From assembly GCF_004006235.1 (NCBI RefSeq), contig NZ_CP034753.1:2418001-2482000 (forward strand): a stretch of DNA of 64,000 nucleotides. Direction: 5' to 3'. Shown here one piece after another: positions 38,695-64,000 of this stretch. The position numbers and the translations under genes are program-made. Under the pieces are notes generated by a model that saw only the letters and a program-made list of their open reading frames with translations, searched no databases and was not told the DNA's origin. Each line of letters opens with the position of its first letter. Positions within the stretch are counted from its first letter, which is position 1. This DNA comes from Agromyces sp. LHK192 (GTDB lineage: Bacteria > Actinomycetota > Actinomycetes > Actinomycetales > Microbacteriaceae).

Positions 38695-41445
38695 TCACTC
38701 GAACAGGTCGGTCTGCAGCACGGCGTAGAGGGTCGCGTGCACGCGGTCGCGCAGGCCCTCGCCCACGCCGACCGGGTCGGCCGCGAGCGCGTCCTTCGTC
38801 GCGGATGCCGCGGAGCTCGGCAGCATCGCGAGCATCAGGTCGTTGCCGTACCGCACCGCGAGCGCCGGATCCATGAACCCGCCGAGCACGGCATCGGTCG
38901 ACACCACGCCCTCGAAGCCCCACTCGCCGCGGAGCACCTCCTGGAGCAGCTGCTCGTTGCCGCCGGCCCAGCGGCCGCCGATGTTGATGAACGAGCTCAT
39001 CGCACCCGACGCGTCGCCCTCCTTGACCGTGATCTCGAACGGTCGCAGGTACAGCTCGCGCAGCGCCTGCTCGTCGACGAACACGTTCACGCCCGGTGCC
39101 CGCGCGTTGATCTCCTGCTCGTTGAGCGCGAAGTGCTTCATGAACGTGAGCACGCCACGGCTCTGGGCTCCCTGGACCATCGCCGCGCTCAGCTTGCCCG
39201 AGAGCAGCGGGTCCTCCGAGAGGTACTCGAAGTTGCGGCCGCCCATCGGGGTGCGGTCGAGGTTCATGCCCGGGGCGTACCAGCCCTGCACGCCGAATGC
39301 GTTCGCCTCGGCGCCGACCGCCTCGCCGAGCGCGGAGGCGAGCTCGGGGTTCCAGGTCGCCCCGACGACGGCCTCCGCGGCGAACGACGAGGCATCCAGT
39401 TCGCCGAAGAGGAAGTTCAGGCCCGCCGGTCCGTCGAGCAGGACCGCAGACGGGATGCCCAGCCGCTCGACGCCGTCGGTCTGGTAGGCGCCCTTCGCGA
39501 ACAGGTCCACCTGCTCGTCCACCGTGAGCTGGTCGAGGAACTCCTCCCACTTCGGGTCGTCGTAGTCCAGGCCCTTCAGGTCCTCGAGCATCAGGCCGTT
39601 GTCGGCGCCGTAGGCCGGCGCGTCCCCAGCGGCAGGCGGGATCTCGGGGTCCATCCGATCGAGCAGCTCGTCGGACGCGGTGAGGTCCATGTCGGCGCTG
39701 TCGGGCCAGGTGCCCTCCCAATCGTTCCGCGACAGGGAGGTGAGGTCGCCGGAGGCGTAGCCGAACCGGTTCTCGAGCGTCTCGCCGGTCACCTCGTCGG
39801 TGTCGTAGACGACGGTCTCGGCGATGTCGATCGGGAAGTTCGCGACGGGGGTGTGCACGTCCGTGCCGACGGAGACGAAGTAGGTGCCGGCCTCGAGCAC
39901 GTACGCCTGGCGGTCTCCCTGGTCCCAGGAGGCCAGGTCGCGCACGGCGAACGACACGCTCACGGTCTCGCTCGCACCGGGCTGGAGCAGCGACGTCTTC
40001 GAGAAGCCGGCGAGTTCGATCGCCGACTTCTCGATGCCGCCGGGGGTGTACGGCGCGGCGGAGTAGACCTCGACGACGTCCTTGCCGGCGACGTCGCCCG
40101 TGTTCGTCACGGTCACGTCGATCGACACCGTGTCGTCGTCGACGACGGGCTGCGACGCCTGGCGGTCGAAGGTCGTGTAGCTCAGGCCGTAGCCGAACGG
40201 GTACTGCACGGCCCCGGCGTAGGCCGCCTCGTCGTCGGCGTACCGGGTCTCGTAGTACCGGTATCCGACGTAGATGCCCTCCTCGTACTCGAGCACGCCG
40301 CGGTTGACGTTCTCGTAGCGGAAGTCGCCGAGGTTCTCGGTCGACGGCGCGCTCGTCACGTCGTAGGCGTACGTGTCCGTCAGGCGGCCCGAGGGGTTGA
40401 CCTCTCCCGCGAGCACCTTCGCGAGCGACACGGCGCCGCGCGGTCCGGGGTTGCCGATCCAGACGGCGCCCGTGATCTGCGGGTACTCCTCGAGGAACCC
40501 GAGCTCCATCTGGTTGCCGGAGTTGACGACGACGATCACGTCGTCGAAGTTCGCCGTGACGACGTCGAGCAGTTCGCGCTGCTCGTCGGTGAGGCGCAGG
40601 CTCTCGACCGATAGGTCGGCGGCTTCCGAAGCTCCCGAGCCGATCACGAGCATCGCCGTGTCGGAGAAGTCGCGGGCCTGCGCCAGGACCTCTTCGGTGA
40701 GGTAGTCGGGCGCGGGTTCGCCGGCGTCATCGCCGCCGAGCAGCATCGACGCGATGCCCACCAGCCCGTTCTGCGAGCCCGACTCGGTCTTGGCGCCCGC
40801 CTCCTGCATCGCGGCACGGAGCTCGGGGTTGACCGAGATGCCCTGCTGCTCCAGTGCGTCGTAGAGGCCGACCGCGCTGCCCTGGTTCGCACCGCCCGAA
40901 CCCGCGCCGCCGAAACGGAGGTTGAACGATGCGAAGCTGAACACGTTGACCGTGTCGTCGGCGAGCGGCAGCACGCCGCCCTCGTTCTCGAGCAGGACGA
41001 TGCCCTCGTCGGAGATCGCCTCGGTGACCTCGGCGCTGTGCGCCCGCGCCTGGTCGACGGCCGCGGTCCCGCCGCCGAGCGGGATCGAGACGAGGCGGCT
41101 GATGTCGCGCACGATCGGTGCGAGCAGCACCGCGACGACCGCGACGATCGCGACGACCACGCCCCAGGTGATGAGGCGGCGCGGACGGTGCTTCAGGCGT
41201 CGGTAGGCGCGCTCGCGACGCTTCGCCTCGCGGCGCTCGGCTCGCGTCATCGAGGCGCGCGCAGCCTTGCGCTCCTGCTTCGCGACGCGCTTCGCCGCAC
41301 GCGCCGCTGCGCGGTCGGCGGCCTTCGCCTGCCTGCGGGCCTCGGGCGACATCGCCTTCAGCTCGGCGCGGCGGGCGCGCTTCGCGGCCCGCTCCTCCGC
41401 GAGCCTCGTGCGGGCCTCGTCTCGGAGTTCTCTGCGTGTAGACAT
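38695..41445 (-). CDS. Membrane-anchored GH3 glycosidase with swapped domain order
   Basis: A 916-residue GH3 enzyme. The first about 90 residues are extremely basic (Arg/Lys/Ala coiled segment such as AARAAKRVAKQERKAARAS), then a membrane helix (LITWGVVVAIVAVVAVLLAP, about 93-112), so the catalytic part should be outside. The domain order is C-terminal-type GH3 domain first (EGIVLLENEGGVLPL near 147), then Fn3-like (VTNTGDVAGKDVVEVYS near 450), then the TIM-barrel catalytic domain with LDGPAGLNF, FMKHFALNEQE and the nucleophile Asp in GFEGVVSTDAVLGGF near 850. Swapped GH3 enzymes of this type are known beta-glucosidases. The neighbour at 41580 has the normal order. Confidence 0.9.
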   Translation of the reverse strand: MSTRRELRDEARTRLAEERAAKRARRAELKAMSPEARRQAKAADRAAARAAKRVAKQERKAARASMTRAERREAKRRERAYRRLKHRPRRLITWGVVVAIVAVVAVLLAPIVRDISRLVSIPLGGGTAAVDQARAHSAEVTEAISDEGIVLLENEGGVLPLADDTVNVFSFASFNLRFGGAGSGGANQGSAVGLYDALEQQGISVNPELRAAMQEAGAKTESGSQNGLVGIASMLLGGDDAGEPAPDYLTEEVLAQARDFSDTAMLVIGSGASEAADLSVESLRLTDEQRELLDVVTANFDDVIVVVNSGNQMELGFLEEYPQITGAVWIGNPGPRGAVSLAKVLAGEVNPSGRLTDTYAYDVTSAPSTENLGDFRYENVNRGVLEYEEGIYVGYRYYETRYADDEAAYAGAVQYPFGYGLSYTTFDRQASQPVVDDDTVSIDVTVTNTGDVAGKDVVEVYSAAPYTPGGIEKSAIELAGFSKTSLLQPGASETVSVSFAVRDLASWDQGDRQAYVLEAGTYFVSVGTDVHTPVANFPIDIAETVVYDTDEVTGETLENRFGYASGDLTSLSRNDWEGTWPDSADMDLTASDELLDRMDPEIPPAAGDAPAYGADNGLMLEDLKGLDYDDPKWEEFLDQLTVDEQVDLFAKGAYQTDGVERLGIPSAVLLDGPAGLNFLFGELDASSFAAEAVVGATWNPELASALGEAVGAEANAFGVQGWYAPGMNLDRTPMGGRNFEYLSEDPLLSGKLSAAMVQGAQSRGVLTFMKHFALNEQEINARAPGVNVFVDEQALRELYLRPFEITVKEGDASGAMSSFINIGGRWAGGNEQLLQEVLRGEWGFEGVVSTDAVLGGFMDPALAVRYGNDLMLAMLPSSAASATKDALAADPVGVGEGLRDRVHATLYAVLQTDLFE

Positions 41446-52827: not shown

Positions 52828-53622
52828 ATGACCGAACCGATCTCCGCCGCAGACGAGCCCGACTTCGTGCCCGTGAAGTCGGCTGATCGAACCCTCGAGA
52901 TCCTCGAGAGCCTCGCGAGCGGCGCGGCGGGGCTGGGCGAGCTCGCGTCGCGGCTGCGCATCCCGAAGTCGAGCCTGCACAGCATCCTGCGCACGCTCGA
53001 GCACCGCGGCTGGGTCGAGGCCGACGCCTCGCGATCGACCTACCGCCTCGGCATGAGCGCGCTGCTCATCGGCTCCTCGTACGTCGACCAGGACCCGACG
53101 GTGCTGCGCACCTCCGAGGTGATGGACGCACTCGCCGCCGACACGGGCGAGACCGTGCACCTGGCCCGTCTCGAGTTCCCCGACGTCGTCTACATGGCCA
53201 AGCGCGAGTCGGTGCATCCGCTGCGCATGTTCTCCGCGATCGGCCGGCGCCTGCCCGCGCACGCGACCGCCCTCGGCAAGGTGACGCTTGCCGAACTGCC
53301 CGACGCCGCCGTGCGCAAGCTGGTGCCCGAGACCCTTCCGGCGTCGACCGCGCACACCATCACCTCGCGCGACGCACTCATCGACCACCTCGCACACGTG
53401 CGCGAGGTCGGCTACGCCGTCGACGCCGAGGAGGCCGGCATCGGCATGCGCTGCTTCGCCGTCGCGCTGCCGTTCCAGCATCCGTCGAAGGACGCCATCA
53501 GCTGCTCCGTGCCGCTCGCCCGCCTCGACGACGAGAAGGAACGCGCGATCATCGACCTGCTCTTCGAAGCCAGGGACCGACTCAGCCGCCAGTTCGGCGG
53601 CCGCCGCCTCACCGCGAGCTGA
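52828..53622 (+). CDS. IclR-family transcriptional regulator
   Basis: A 264-residue IclR regulator. The winged helix lies at about 15-75 (KSADRTLEILESLASGAAGLG, then RLRIPKSSLHSILRTLEHRGW). The effector-binding domain follows, with GETVHLARLEFPDVVYMAKRE near 110 and AEEAGIGMRCFAVALPFQHP near 200. ATG at 52828 is preceded by GGGAG; an in-frame start 20 codons upstream would overlap the palindrome. It is divergent from kduI and is the likely controller of the uronate operon (compare KdgR). Confidence 0.9.
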   Translation: MTEPISAADEPDFVPVKSADRTLEILESLASGAAGLGELASRLRIPKSSLHSILRTLEHRGWVEADASRSTYRLGMSALLIGSSYVDQDPTVLRTSEVMDALAADTGETVHLARLEFPDVVYMAKRESVHPLRMFSAIGRRLPAHATALGKVTLAELPDAAVRKLVPETLPASTAHTITSRDALIDHLAHVREVGYAVDAEEAGIGMRCFAVALPFQHPSKDAISCSVPLARLDDEKERAIIDLLFEARDRLSRQFGGRRLTAS

Positions 53623-59003: not shown

Positions 59004-59013
59004 GGGTTTGCCT

Positions 59014-59955
59014 ATGCCCCGGGACACGAACGGCGTGACGCTGCAACAGCTCCACTACTTCATCGAGGTGGCGGCGGAGGGGTCGATCTCCGCGGCGGCC
59101 GACGTGCTCTACGTCGCACAGCCGACGATGTCCGCCGCGATGAAGGACCTCGAGACCCGGGTGGGCCGCGCGCTCCTCACCCGCTCGGCCCGCGGCGTCA
59201 GCCTCACCCCCGACGGCGCGGAGTTCCTCGGGTACGCGAGACAGGTCGTCGAGCAGGTGGCGCTGCTCGAACAGCGCTACCTCGGTCGACCGCCGTCGCG
59301 ACGCCTGCTCGGGGTGTCGGCCCAGCACTACTCGTTCGTGGTCGATGCGTTCGTCCGGATGGTCAAGCGCACCGGGGCGGCCGAGTACGAGTTCTCGCTG
59401 CGTGAGACCCGCACCTGGGACATCATCGAGGACGTCCGGACCCTGCGCAGCGAGCTCGGCATCCTCTACCGCAACGACTTCAACCGCAAGGTCATCGACA
59501 AGCTGCTGCGGGACTCCGGGCTCGTCTTCCACCCGCTCTTCCTCGCCGAGCCGCACATCTTCATCTCGCGGAACAACCCGCTCGCCGCTCGGGACCGTGC
59601 GACCCTCGCCGATCTCGCCGACCTGCCGCGGCTCACGTTCGACCAGGGGGCGAACAACTCCTTCTACTTCGCCGAGGAGATCCTCTCGACCCTGTCGAGC
59701 GCGCAGGAGATCCGGGTGTCCGACCGGGCGACGATCTTCAACCTGATGATCGGGCTCGACGGCTACACGATCTCGACGGGAATCATCAGCGACGAACTCG
59801 ACCCCGAGATCGTGGCCATCCCGCTCGAGGTCGACGAGCGCATCGAGATCGGCTGGATCGGCCACGCCGCGATTCCGCTCACCGACCAGGCGCAGCGCTA
59901 CCTCTCGGAGGTGCGGGCTGTCGTCGCCGGGTTCGGCGTCGAGGTGCTCGGGTAA
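59014..59955 (+). CDS. LysR-family transcriptional regulator
   Basis: A 313-residue LysR regulator. The N-terminal helix-turn-helix is TLQQLHYFIEVAAEGSISAAADVLYVAQPTMSAAMKDLE (about 8-48), followed by a linker helix and a periplasmic-binding-protein-like effector domain (LGVSAQHYSFVVDAFVRMVK near 95). ATG at 59014 is used; TTG two codons upstream is possible. It is divergent from mesX and the likely regulator of the methionine synthase operon, with methionine, homocysteine or a flavin-linked signal as possible effector. Confidence 0.92.
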   Translation: MPRDTNGVTLQQLHYFIEVAAEGSISAAADVLYVAQPTMSAAMKDLETRVGRALLTRSARGVSLTPDGAEFLGYARQVVEQVALLEQRYLGRPPSRRLLGVSAQHYSFVVDAFVRMVKRTGAAEYEFSLRETRTWDIIEDVRTLRSELGILYRNDFNRKVIDKLLRDSGLVFHPLFLAEPHIFISRNNPLAARDRATLADLADLPRLTFDQGANNSFYFAEEILSTLSSAQEIRVSDRATIFNLMIGLDGYTISTGIISDELDPEIVAIPLEVDERIEIGWIGHAAIPLTDQAQRYLSEVRAVVAGFGVEVLG

Positions 59956-60040: not shown

Positions 60041-60065
60041 TGAAGCGCTCTGGGTCTTTTGGAGG
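60041..60065 (+). repeat. IS3 left terminal inverted repeat
   Basis: TGAAGCGCTCTGGGTCTTTT followed by GGAGG. The first 17 bases are identical to the complement of the right end. Confidence 0.88.
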
Positions 60066-60094
60066 CTCTTGACCTTGGAAACGAGGATGGGGTT

Positions 60095-60438
60095 ATGCCG
60101 AGAGAACAGGCGCCTGGGAGCCGACGACGCGTCGCTACTCGATCGAGGAGAAGGCCGCAGCGGTGCGGATGGTCAGGACGCTGCGGGCTGAGCTCGGCGT
60201 CACGCAGGGCACGGTGCAGCGAGTCGCGTCGCAGCTCGGCTATGGCGTCGAGTCGGTGCGGACCTGGGTCAAGCAGGCCGATATCGACGAGGGCGTCGCA
60301 CCCGGGGTGAGTACGGCTGAGGCGGCTCGGGTGCGCGAGCTGGAGCAGGAGGTCCGCGAGTTGCGTCGGGCGAACGAGGTGCTCAAGCGGGCGGCGTCTT
60401 TCTTCGGGGCGGAGCTCGACCGCCACTACCGGAAGTAG
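60095..60438 (+). pseudogene. IS3 OrfA, frame broken near its start
   Basis: The transposase DNA-binding subunit. The conserved frame reads RYSIEEKAAAVRMVRTLRAE, then GTVQRVASQLGYGVESVRTWVKQADID and a coiled coil RELEQEVRELRRANEVLKRAASFF, and ends at TAG 60438. The only plausible ATG (60095, MPREQAPG) is in another frame; a one-base shift between about 60118 and 60133 would join them. Translation could start at an internal GTG (60163) and give 91 residues. OrfB continues in the -1 frame, as in IS3 fusion frameshifting. Confidence 0.75.
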
Positions 60439-60470
60439 TCGCGTTCATCGACCAGAACAAGGACGACCTG

Positions 60471-61357
60471 GTGGGCGGTCGCCGGCTCGGGGTCGAGCTC
60501 ATCTGCAGGTTGCTGCGGGTGGCTCCGAGCAGCTACTACGCCGTGAAGACCCGGGTCCCGTCGGCACGTGCGGTACGGGACGAGGAGCTGATCCCGCGGC
60601 TGGTCGCCCTGTGGGAGTCGAACTACCGCGTGTACGGGGTCCGCAAGCTATGGAAGGCCGCCCGCCGCGCTGGGGTCATGATCGGCCGGGACCAGAACGC
60701 CGGCTGATGCGGGCGGCGGGGATCGAGGGCGCCAGACGGTCCAAGCGAGTGAAGACGACGAAGCCGGATCCAACCTCGGCCAGGCATCCGGATCTGGTGC
60801 AGCGCCAGTTCACCGCGACCGTCCCGAACCGGCTCTGGGTGACGGACCTGACGTTCGTGCCAACCTGGACCGGCGTGGCGTACGTGTGCTTCATCATCGA
60901 CGCGTACTCGCGGATGATCGTGGGGTGGCGGGTCGCGTCGCACATGCGCACCGAGATGGTGCTCGACGCGATCGAGATGGCCCGCTGGTCCCGCGGTCGA
61001 CATCACGCCGACCTGCGGTGTCACAGCGATGCGGGCAGTCAATTCACCTCCATCCGCTACGGCGAGCGGCTGGCCGAGATCGGCGCCACGCCCTCGATCG
61101 GGACCGTCGGTGACTCGTACGACAACGCCCTCGCCGAAACCGTGAACGGGTACTACAAGGCCGAACTTGTCCGCGGGCCCGCCCGATCGGGGCCGTGGAA
61201 GACGGTCGAGGACCTCGCGCTCGCGACGCTCGGCTGGGTGCACTGGCACAACATCGAGCGCCTGCATGGCTACCTCGGCGACGTGCCGCCGGTCGAGTTC
61301 GAGACGGCGTTCTATGCTGTCCAAGCCGACCGCGACGAGCCGGTCGGAATCAAATAG
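60471..61357 (+). pseudogene. IS3 OrfB integrase, frameshifted near 60702
   Basis: The catalytic subunit in two frames. The first part (GGRRLGVELICRLLRVAPSS to AGVMIGRDQNAG) stops at 60707. The rest continues in the next frame from RLMRAAGIEGARRSKRV to the end. Losing one C in the GCCCGG context at about 60702 explains the break. The DDE residues are all present: Asp in RLWVTDLTFVPTW, Asp in CHSDAGSQFTS and Glu in NALAETVNGYYKAELV. Reading frame GTG at 60471 is nominal; real translation would come by frameshift from OrfA. Confidence 0.8.
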
Positions 61358-61363
61358 CGCGAG

Positions 61364-61388
61364 TCTCCATCAGACCCAGAGCGCTTCA
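61364..61388 (-). repeat. IS3 right terminal inverted repeat
   Basis: On the minus strand it reads TGAAGCGCTCTGGGTCTGAT followed by GGAGA, pairing with the left end over 22 of 25 positions. Confidence 0.88.
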
Positions 61389-61542
61389 GTGCGCCACGTG
61401 CGCCAACCGACGGTGAGAGATCTCCTAAACCGACTCTGAACTGATGGGCCGCTGTCCACGAATCGAGGGGTTCACCGGTGTCGGAGGGCCCTGCGAAACT
61501 GTCGCGGGGCCGGGTAGGCCAACTCTGGCCGGAGAGGATCGA

Positions 61543-63021
61543 ATGAGCGTCGTTGCTGAGTATGCCCGTGTGATGGCGGCGTTCGCCGCGCCAACCATGT
61601 CGCTGTTGCGCGGTTCGCTGTCGCCGGTGAGCGTGGCAGTGTTCCGCGAGGCGTTCCCTCGCGACGCAAAGACGAAGCCCGTCGGTCTCCTCCACGAGCT
61701 CGTGGACTCGCTACTGCAGGAGCTTCGCGCCCGCGGCGTCTCCAACGTTCCCGAGGGTGACGGCCGCGAAGTGTGCACGGGTTGGGTGCGCCGGAAATGG
61801 CTGACCCGCGACGTGGACGGCACGACCTACACGCTCACGTCGTACGCCATGCAGGCGCTCGGGCTCGTCCAGAGCCTCACTCGCGATCGGGTGAACCTCA
61901 GCGAGCACCGAATCAAGAACATCGTCGACACTGCCCGGCGCATCAGCTCCGAGTCGAACCCCGACCGCGAGGCCCGCACGCAGATGCTGCGGTCCCAGAT
62001 CGCTCAGCAGCAGGAAGAGCTCGCTTACCTCGAGGCGGGCGGTGAGATGAAGGAGGTCTCGGCCGGATTCATCCTCGAGGGCCTCCTCGAACTGCAGGAT
62101 CTCGTCTCGGGGTTGCCGGTCGAGTTCGCGCGCGTCGGCGAGGTCGTCGAGGAGATGCAGGAGAGACTCCGGGCCGACTTCCGGGCCGACCGCCGCTCTC
62201 CCGGCGAGATCGTCTCCGACTACCTCGACCGGGCCAGCCAACTGACGACTTCCACCCCCGAGGGTCGCGCGTTCGAGGGTGCATTCAACCTGCTGGACGA
62301 CGACGCACTCCTCGACCAGTTGCGTTCGGACATCATCACCCTCGTCGAGCACCCCGGTGTAGCGGAGGAACTGACCGTCGATCAGAAGAAGGCCCTGCTC
62401 GGCATCGTGCGTCTCGTCCGCGACGGCGCCCGGTTGACGATGGGGAAGATCGTGGACACCGTCGAAACCCTCAACGTGTTCATCCGGACCCGCAACGTCG
62501 CGGAGGACCGGGAGCTCGACCGAGTGCTCATCGACCTCGAATCTGCGATGGAGTCCTGGCTGCAGACTGCAGGTCCGCGTGCGACGGTGCAGGTCGACCT
62601 ACTCCCAGAGGTGCTCGAGATCGAGTACATCCGGGAGAACTTCTACGACCACACCAAGGACATCCCGTTCGACCCCCTCGAGGACGAAGTTGGTGGCGAC
62701 CGACCGCCGGCGGTGTCGGCTGCTGAGCTTCGACGGCAGGGAGGGCCGCGCCTGGTCGAGCTTCGCGCAGCGCTGGACACGGCGACCAGTGTCGGCGCCG
62801 CGGGGTGGACGGTCGGGGCGAACGTGTTCCCGCGCTTGCCCGACGAAGCGCGTCGTCCCGTTGACGTCCTCGGCATCATGCAGTTGGTGACCGACCGCGA
62901 CGATCTCGGTCGCGCCCACGGGTTTGAGGAGTACGCGACGAGGCGGCCGGACGGTTCAGAGATGGTGCTTCGGGCACCCGTCCTCGCGCCGATGGCGGAG
63001 AGGGTGGAGATCGATGACTGA
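61543..63021 (+). CDS. jetA: Wadjet component JetA (DUF3375)
   Basis: A 492-residue DUF3375 protein, the kleisin-like JetA subunit of type I Wadjet, an SMC-type complex that recognises and cleaves closed circular plasmid DNA. It begins MSVVAEYARVMAAFAAPTMS with ALRG-type SLLRGSLSPVSVAVFREAF. A winged-helix-like segment (GWVRRKWLTRDVDGTTYTLT) lies near 90, a long helical region spans about 140-400 (QMLRSQIAQQQEELAYLEAGG, RVGEVVEEMQERLRADFRADR), and the C-terminal domain ends LGIMQLVTDRDDLGRAHGF. ATG at 61543 follows GGAGAGGATCGA. The 154 bp before it, after the IS end, show no clear promoter. Confidence 0.9.
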   Translation: MSVVAEYARVMAAFAAPTMSLLRGSLSPVSVAVFREAFPRDAKTKPVGLLHELVDSLLQELRARGVSNVPEGDGREVCTGWVRRKWLTRDVDGTTYTLTSYAMQALGLVQSLTRDRVNLSEHRIKNIVDTARRISSESNPDREARTQMLRSQIAQQQEELAYLEAGGEMKEVSAGFILEGLLELQDLVSGLPVEFARVGEVVEEMQERLRADFRADRRSPGEIVSDYLDRASQLTTSTPEGRAFEGAFNLLDDDALLDQLRSDIITLVEHPGVAEELTVDQKKALLGIVRLVRDGARLTMGKIVDTVETLNVFIRTRNVAEDRELDRVLIDLESAMESWLQTAGPRATVQVDLLPEVLEIEYIRENFYDHTKDIPFDPLEDEVGGDRPPAVSAAELRRQGGPRLVELRAALDTATSVGAAGWTVGANVFPRLPDEARRPVDVLGIMQLVTDRDDLGRAHGFEEYATRRPDGSEMVLRAPVLAPMAERVEIDD

Positions 63022-63730
63022 CCTAAGCGAAACCGAGGATCTCATTGATGGGTTCGCCGAGGACGGGACGGGCGAGACCGAACCGGACTTCGGTTACACC
63101 GACGACTTCGACGACGACGTCGTCACCCTCACGCACGCCGCTTTCGACGGCGACAAGGGCAACCTCGGGGTCGACGTCCGCCATGCGATCGTCGCGATCA
63201 TGCGGGACCAGTTCATCACTCGCGACACCCACAAGCGCGAGTGGAAGGCACTGATCACCAACCGGGACGACGTGAAGACCCACCTGAATAACATGTACCT
63301 CGACCTCGAACTCGACGAGGTCAACGGTGTCGCCTACAAGTTCCAGGTCCGCAACCAGGACAGCACGCGCGGATTCCCCACGCTGCTGCGTGCGTTGCAG
63401 TGGAACCGAGAGCAGACGACCTTGCTGGTGCACCTGCGGATCGTTCAGCGTCACCAGATCGGCGGCGGCGCCGCTCGCGCGATCGTGAACGCGACGGACT
63501 TACAGGACCACTTCGCGTCCATCCGCCCGAAGACGGCCACCAACCACCTCGGCGACGCGACCCGCCTGAAGAACGCGATCGAGTTCGTGCGGAAGTCGGG
63601 TCTTCTGATCGAGACGAAGCAGGCCGGCGTGTACGTCGTTTCCTCCGTCCTCGAGCGTCTCCTGCCGTTGCCGAAACTGCAGGAGCTGACGGTGTTCTTC
63701 TCGAACGAGACCGGAGAGTCCGATGACTGA
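63014..63730 (+). CDS. jetB: Wadjet component JetB (DUF4194)
   Basis: A 238-residue DUF4194 protein, the KITE-like JetB subunit that bridges JetA and the JetC ATPase. An acidic N-terminus (about 1-40) is followed by ALITNRDDVKTHLNNMYLDLELDE near 75, RGFPTLLRALQWNREQTTLLVHLR near 115 and NAIEFVRKSGLLIETKQAGVYVVSSVLERLLP near 185, the two-winged-helix pattern of the family. ATG at 63014 overlaps jetA by 8 bp (ATGACTGA); the same 8 bases form the junction to jetC. Confidence 0.9.
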   Translation: MTDLSETEDLIDGFAEDGTGETEPDFGYTDDFDDDVVTLTHAAFDGDKGNLGVDVRHAIVAIMRDQFITRDTHKREWKALITNRDDVKTHLNNMYLDLELDEVNGVAYKFQVRNQDSTRGFPTLLRALQWNREQTTLLVHLRIVQRHQIGGGAARAIVNATDLQDHFASIRPKTATNHLGDATRLKNAIEFVRKSGLLIETKQAGVYVVSSVLERLLPLPKLQELTVFFSNETGESDD

Positions 63731-64000
63731 CGAACTGACGAAGATGACGCTGGGCTCGGTGGGTCTCTTCCCCGAGTCGCATTGGCGCATCGAGACGATC
63801 GAGGTCGTGAACTGGGGTGGGTTCCATCGCCAGCCGGCGACATTCTCCTTTCACTCTGGGGCGTCGATCGTCACCGGCTTCTCCGGTGTGGGCAAGTCGA
63901 CGGTCCTGGACGCCTACCTCGCGTTGATGATGCCATCGAGCGTGCGCTTCAACGGCGCATCGAACGCAGCCACGTCTGGTAAGGCTCGCTCGGCTGAGCA
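63723..64000 (+). CDS. jetC: Wadjet component JetC (SMC-like ATPase), 3' end beyond window
   Basis: The first 92 codons of the JetC ATPase. After MTDELTKMTLGSVGLFPESH comes IEVVNWGGFHRQPATFSFHSG and the Walker A P-loop IVTGFSGVGKSTVLDAYLALMM near residue 52, as in SMC, MukB and SbcC heads. The full protein is expected to exceed 1000 residues with a long coiled coil, followed by JetD, the toprim-type nuclease subunit. ATG at 63723 overlaps jetB by 8 bp. The rest cannot be seen here. Confidence 0.9.
   Translation, partial: MTDELTKMTLGSVGLFPESHWRIETIEVVNWGGFHRQPATFSFHSGASIVTGFSGVGKSTVLDAYLALMMPSSVRFNGASNAATSGKARSAE

Follow-up and report, generated by a model that had tools for sequence, protein, structure and literature searches.

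Agromyces sp. LHK192 in all likelihood carries a complete and intact type I Wadjet operon (JetABCD, also known as MksFEBG), a reading to which we assign a probability of about 0.94 and which includes, by analogy with characterized systems, a proposed action as a DNA motor joined to the JetD nuclease. The operon is an ordinary member of an established family, in agreement with the initial annotation, which had proposed a type I Wadjet in the order jetA-jetB-jetC and had described the system as known rather than new. The window, that is, the whole 64-kb stretch of DNA analyzed (bases 2418001-2482000 of the 4.09 Mb single-contig genome), ends within jetC; the contig runs past this edge, and positions beyond it are given here in window numbering.

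The four genes lie on a single strand (+) in the order jetA-jetB-jetC-jetD. The kleisin subunit JetA (492 aa) is encoded at 61543..63021, the KITE subunit JetB (238 aa) at 63014..63730, and JetC (1138 aa) at 63723..67139, with the first 92 codons of jetC (63723..64000) inside the window. The contig sequence beyond the edge thus supplies both the long JetC and the downstream JetD (396 aa; 67136..68326, with a GTG start) that the initial annotation had proposed to look for there. All four frames are intact, with neither a stop nor a frame break. For jetA, a longer alternative with a start at 61444 is possible; the ATG at 61543 is favored because the protein that it yields is covered by the best PADLOC model from residue 2 onward and because a sequence resembling a ribosome-binding site, GGAGAGG, precedes this start by a few bases. 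Consecutive genes overlap by 8, 8 and 4 bp, the last overlap being GTGA, and the jet genes are probably co-transcribed; a consensus scan, which covers only some promoter types, detected no sigma-70-like promoter upstream of the operon. The host genome contains a single DUF3375 gene.

The family assignments are strong for all four proteins. The profile searches identified JetA as DUF3375 (PF11855, E=1.4e-75; 255.4 bits, cut-off 28.6) and JetB as DUF4194 (PF13835, E=6.6e-30; 104.4 bits, cut-off 32.7), as the initial annotation had predicted. The four Jet proteins gave no NCBIfam match above the model cut-offs. The part of jetC inside the window matches Pfam AAA_29 (E=2.1e-19), and JetC also contains the SbcC_Walker_B domain; JetD combines DUF3322 (PF11795, E=7.2e-27) with the Toprim-type C-terminal domain JetD_C (PF09983, E=1.3e-32). 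The best PADLOC matches were the type I models throughout, namely JetA1 (E=1.3e-130), JetB1 (E=4.7e-52), JetC1 (E=0 over residues 19-1129) and JetD1 (E=9.5e-84). Among solved structures, JetA matches 8dk1 (E=1.7e-17), JetC matches 8as8 (E=7.3e-40), and the best match of JetD is MksG (8b7f, E=6.6e-17); JetB had no match to PDB sequences at E 0.001. The ATPase motifs of JetC are intact, with the Walker A motif from residue 52, the signature from residue 1029 and Walker B from residue 1061. In JetD, E243 faces the residue that is mutated in PDB 8q72 (JetD E248A), as counted by hand on the alignment, and the motif GDMDADG starts at residue 286; E243 and the acids of this motif are invariant in an alignment of five JetD sequences. 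The sequence features that define a type I Wadjet, from the DUF3375 and DUF4194 subunits and the long JetC to a JetD with its catalytic acids and the gene order, are accordingly all present.

In other type I systems, JetABC forms a dimer of dimers that extrudes loops, and JetD cuts fully extruded circles (PMC10586767, PMC12647877). By analogy, the SMC ATPase JetC, together with JetA and JetB, would assemble into a dimer-of-dimers motor for DNA extrusion; with a small circle as substrate, extrusion would run to completion, the Toprim nuclease of JetD would be switched on, and the circle would be cut. Loop extrusion, cleavage and plasmid exclusion are thus the activities that this operon would be predicted to provide in Agromyces sp. 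LHK192, and it could make the organism a poor plasmid recipient. The operon shares the four protein families and a similar JetC length with the structurally characterized JetABCD of E. coli GF4-3 and P. aeruginosa PA14 (PMC10586767), with sequence matches to PDB entries for JetC, JetA and JetD, although the sequences are distant, as the E-value of JetC against 8as8 and the unmatched JetB indicate. The MksFEBG system of C. glutamicum (PMC10123090) is likewise an actinobacterial type I system with the same gene order, and its MksG is the solved protein closest to the LHK192 JetD; however, MksFEBG adjoins adhA, whereas the LHK192 operon lies in a variable island next to tRNA-Gln/gltX. The Wadjet family is already common in Actinobacteria, with a reported presence in 42% of genomes (PMC10482375), and the present operon is one more intact anti-plasmid system of this kind.

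Many relatives of the operon have no jetD. Among 396 genomes of the order searched, 47, including LHK192, encode a JetC at E 1e-100 or better; the JetD_C family was found anywhere in 10 of these genomes and beside JetC in 7, which leaves 40 without an adjacent jetD (one of them, G195, on a contig that ends just after jetC). Because JetD_C was detected in 13 of 14 further JetC-bearing genomes (13 with weaker JetC matches and one, G027, with a strong match), the absence of jetD is concentrated among the JetC nearest to that of LHK192 rather than general. The 26 longer loci include 24 in which jetA-jetB-jetC is present and jetD is not; among these, L085 stops 138 bp past jetC. The open frames that follow jetC differ among the 24 loci. 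Some recur in a few closely related loci, but none was seen in all of them. Masking does not account for the missing jetD: in the 26 loci, the 2 kb that follow jetC (in L085, the 138 bp up to the end of the locus) contain no runs of N.

The comparison was extended to a second, selected set. It consists of 80 named loci, the best 80 of 544 relatives from an alignment-based contig search with patterns modelled on the ATPase motifs that this branch shows, and covers other orders, including that of Nocardioides. A search of the + strand frames found a jetD match in 13 of these loci and none in 67; with the six jetD-less loci that have less than 760 bp left past jetC set aside, 61 of 74 lack jetD. 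Within the best 80 of 544, the loci without jetD include every Curtobacterium and Cryobacterium locus with sufficient room and most of the Nocardioides loci. These JetABC operons resemble that of LHK192 in the order jetA-jetB-jetC, in their tight junctions and in JetC, which is 40-43% identical over the best segment, and differ from it in that no jetD was found.

A tree of 47 JetC sequences labelled by JetD status shows 7 changes of that status, of which at least 6 are forced by well-supported branches; this was a quick tree with long branches, that of the LHK192 JetC among them. All 28 of the JetD-less JetC on the tree retain the Walker A, SGG and DE motifs. In one locus that has jetD (L042), the N-terminus of JetB resembles those of near relatives without jetD. 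Two Kineosporia genomes allow a direct comparison, their jetABC regions being approximately 93% identical in DNA: G084 contains a jetD of approximately 1.2 kb, and the corresponding place in G127 (L084 8058-9879) is occupied by 1.8 kb of other DNA. This DNA contains a convergent open frame that, judging by its HKD-type motifs, presumably encodes a phospholipase D-like protein. Taken together, the changes on the tree and the Kineosporia pair suggest repeated loss or gain of jetD. We therefore put forward, with somewhat less than even confidence, the possibility that in this actinobacterial branch JetD behaves as a detachable module, with a minority of operons carrying it. Since most of these JetABC operons have no adjacent nuclease and keep intact ATPase motifs, they would probably perform another, condensin-like job. 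Literature searches brought up only the general statement that MksBEF probably arose through loss of JetD (PMC10586767), which does not make the actinobacterial case unpublished. Closely similar JetABC operons, some with the nuclease and some lacking it, form a natural pair in which to ask whether the SMC motor does anything besides plasmid cutting.

The same distribution gives some substance to a different view of the LHK192 operon itself, namely that its JetABC is an MksBEF-like condensin concerned chiefly with chromosome organization, JetD being present but secondary. Its nearest JetABC relatives mostly have no adjacent jetD, and the MksBEF of P. aeruginosa, which acts on the chromosome, is considered in a review to be a likely product of JetD loss (PMC10586767). 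However, the LHK192 jetD directly overlaps jetC and has kept its catalytic residues, and the site of the operon is not a conserved one but a variable island, so we consider this alternative highly improbable and retain the reading of a complete anti-plasmid Wadjet.

The initial annotation had further noted an identical 8-bp overlap, ATGACTGA, at both jetA/jetB and jetB/jetC. The sequence itself and a pattern search confirm it on the + strand at 63014..63021 and 63723..63730, and on both strands of the 64-kb window these are the only two copies. Shuffling the window 100 times yielded a mean of 0.75 copies, with two or more in 14 shuffles; hence, it is the placement of the octamer, and not its count, that calls for attention. 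We measured the junctions in two sets of relatives, taking the start codon nearest to the upstream stop, a procedure that favors short overlaps. The first set, in which genes were placed by profile searches, comprised 48 JetC loci, all from the order and including LHK192, after seven longer duplicate stretches of the same loci had been taken out by hand. At jetA/jetB, 44 of these unique loci were measurable, with a 4-bp overlap in 19, an 8-bp overlap in 18 (ATGACTGA in 14) and other arrangements in 7. At jetB/jetC, 46 were measurable: 20 overlapped by 4 bp, another 20 had a 2-nt gap, only 2, one of them LHK192, overlapped by 8 bp, and 4 were arranged otherwise. The second set was that of the named loci (best 80 of 544), of which 79 were measured and at least three are also contigs of the first set. 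Here, the jetA/jetB overlap was 4 bp in 49 loci and 8 bp in 16 (ATGACTGA in 11), with 14 others; for jetB/jetC, the counts were 56 with a 4-bp overlap, 15 with a 2-nt gap, 2 with an 8-bp overlap and 6 others. Tight spacing of the jet genes, which the method favors, is thus the rule; the paired octamer is not.

These measurements bear on the suggestion, made in the initial annotation, that the overlaps could hold subunit amounts equal, and on the wider proposal that the identical octamers are a conserved coupling device to this end. The identity of the two junctions in LHK192, the lack of further copies in 64 kb and the commonness of the 8-bp overlap at jetA/jetB speak for such a device, but the 8-bp overlap is rare at jetB/jetC, no second operon among those measured in the two sets has ATGACTGA at both junctions, and the type I complex is (JetC2JetB2JetA1)2, or A:B:C 1:2:2 (PMC12647877), so that equal synthesis is not an expected need and the proposal is barely credible. 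The short overlaps most likely provide the translational coupling that is usual in multi-subunit operons, with no fixed 1:1:1 ratio.

The operon site is a variable island of approximately 34 kb (36870 to 71060), bounded by a conserved block on one side and by tRNA-Gln/gltX on the other. In the congener G023, the match extends to 36.86 kb and is followed by approximately 160 bp and then by a tRNA-Gln that matches 71.06 kb; the approximately 34 kb in between are therefore extra in Agromyces sp. LHK192. Among 20 congeners compared on the gltX side, the extent of matching to the island interval varies. Of the 60 genomes of the genus, LHK192 included, 59 have a strong gltX match; the exception, G027, is assembled in 810 contigs. 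The four jet genes have a G+C content of 62-70%, compared to mostly 69-75% in the flanks (2-kb steps). For the LysR gene to the left of the operon (59008-59955), only one of the 59 other genomes of the genus (G022) gave a match at E 1e-40, and that genome has no JetC match. Of 36 congeners searched, 8 have a JetC that matches at E 0.001 or better, the best full-length one being 35% identical; the nearest relatives among the best 80 of 544 belong to other genera, with 48% identity over the best segment in Mycetocola miduiensis. These observations fit a putative horizontal acquisition of the operon.

The initial annotation had taken the neighboring insertion sequence as the mark of an acquired segment. 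The segment is indeed variable; the insertion sequences, of which there are two, do not reveal the route by which it arrived. The left element (60041..61388, +) has 28-nt terminal inverted repeats (89% complementary), an HTH_Tnp_1 orfA and an rve orfB that is apparently split over two frames; the right element, beyond the window edge (about 68749-70081), has a transposase gene that is likewise apparently split over two frames. The left element matches its own genome at full length only at itself, and so does the right one, which has one further partial match of 63 bp elsewhere; the two do not match each other, and no target duplication was seen in the flanks of either. Being unlike, single-copy, apparently interrupted and without target duplication, the pair is not the evident vehicle of the operon, and a composite transposon, with two like copies and a target duplication, is not what is seen here. 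A repeat search likewise gives no support to an integration at tRNA-Gln that duplicated the attachment site: pieces of the tRNA of 16, 18, 20 and 22 nt, with at most one mismatch, did not recur in the same orientation within 20000-71000.

Apart from the jet genes, no further defense genes were recognized among the portion of the island proteins that was scanned, some of them against PADLOC. An amine oxidase with a weak PADLOC match to a desaturase model was rejected as a defense candidate, the match being read as a shared general domain. Besides Wadjet, the island cargo includes two GH3 enzymes, an ABC transporter with a sugar-type binding protein, an aldehyde dehydrogenase, and MesX with a methionine-synthase-like gene. 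A GH3-family protein at 38695-41445 (-) has permuted domains, with Glyco_hydro_3_C first, followed by the Fn3-like domain and the N-terminal domain last. A 264-aa protein encoded at 52828-53622 (+) shows weak PADLOC matches to the C-terminal part of CARF/Csa3 models, which probably reflect a shared general domain.
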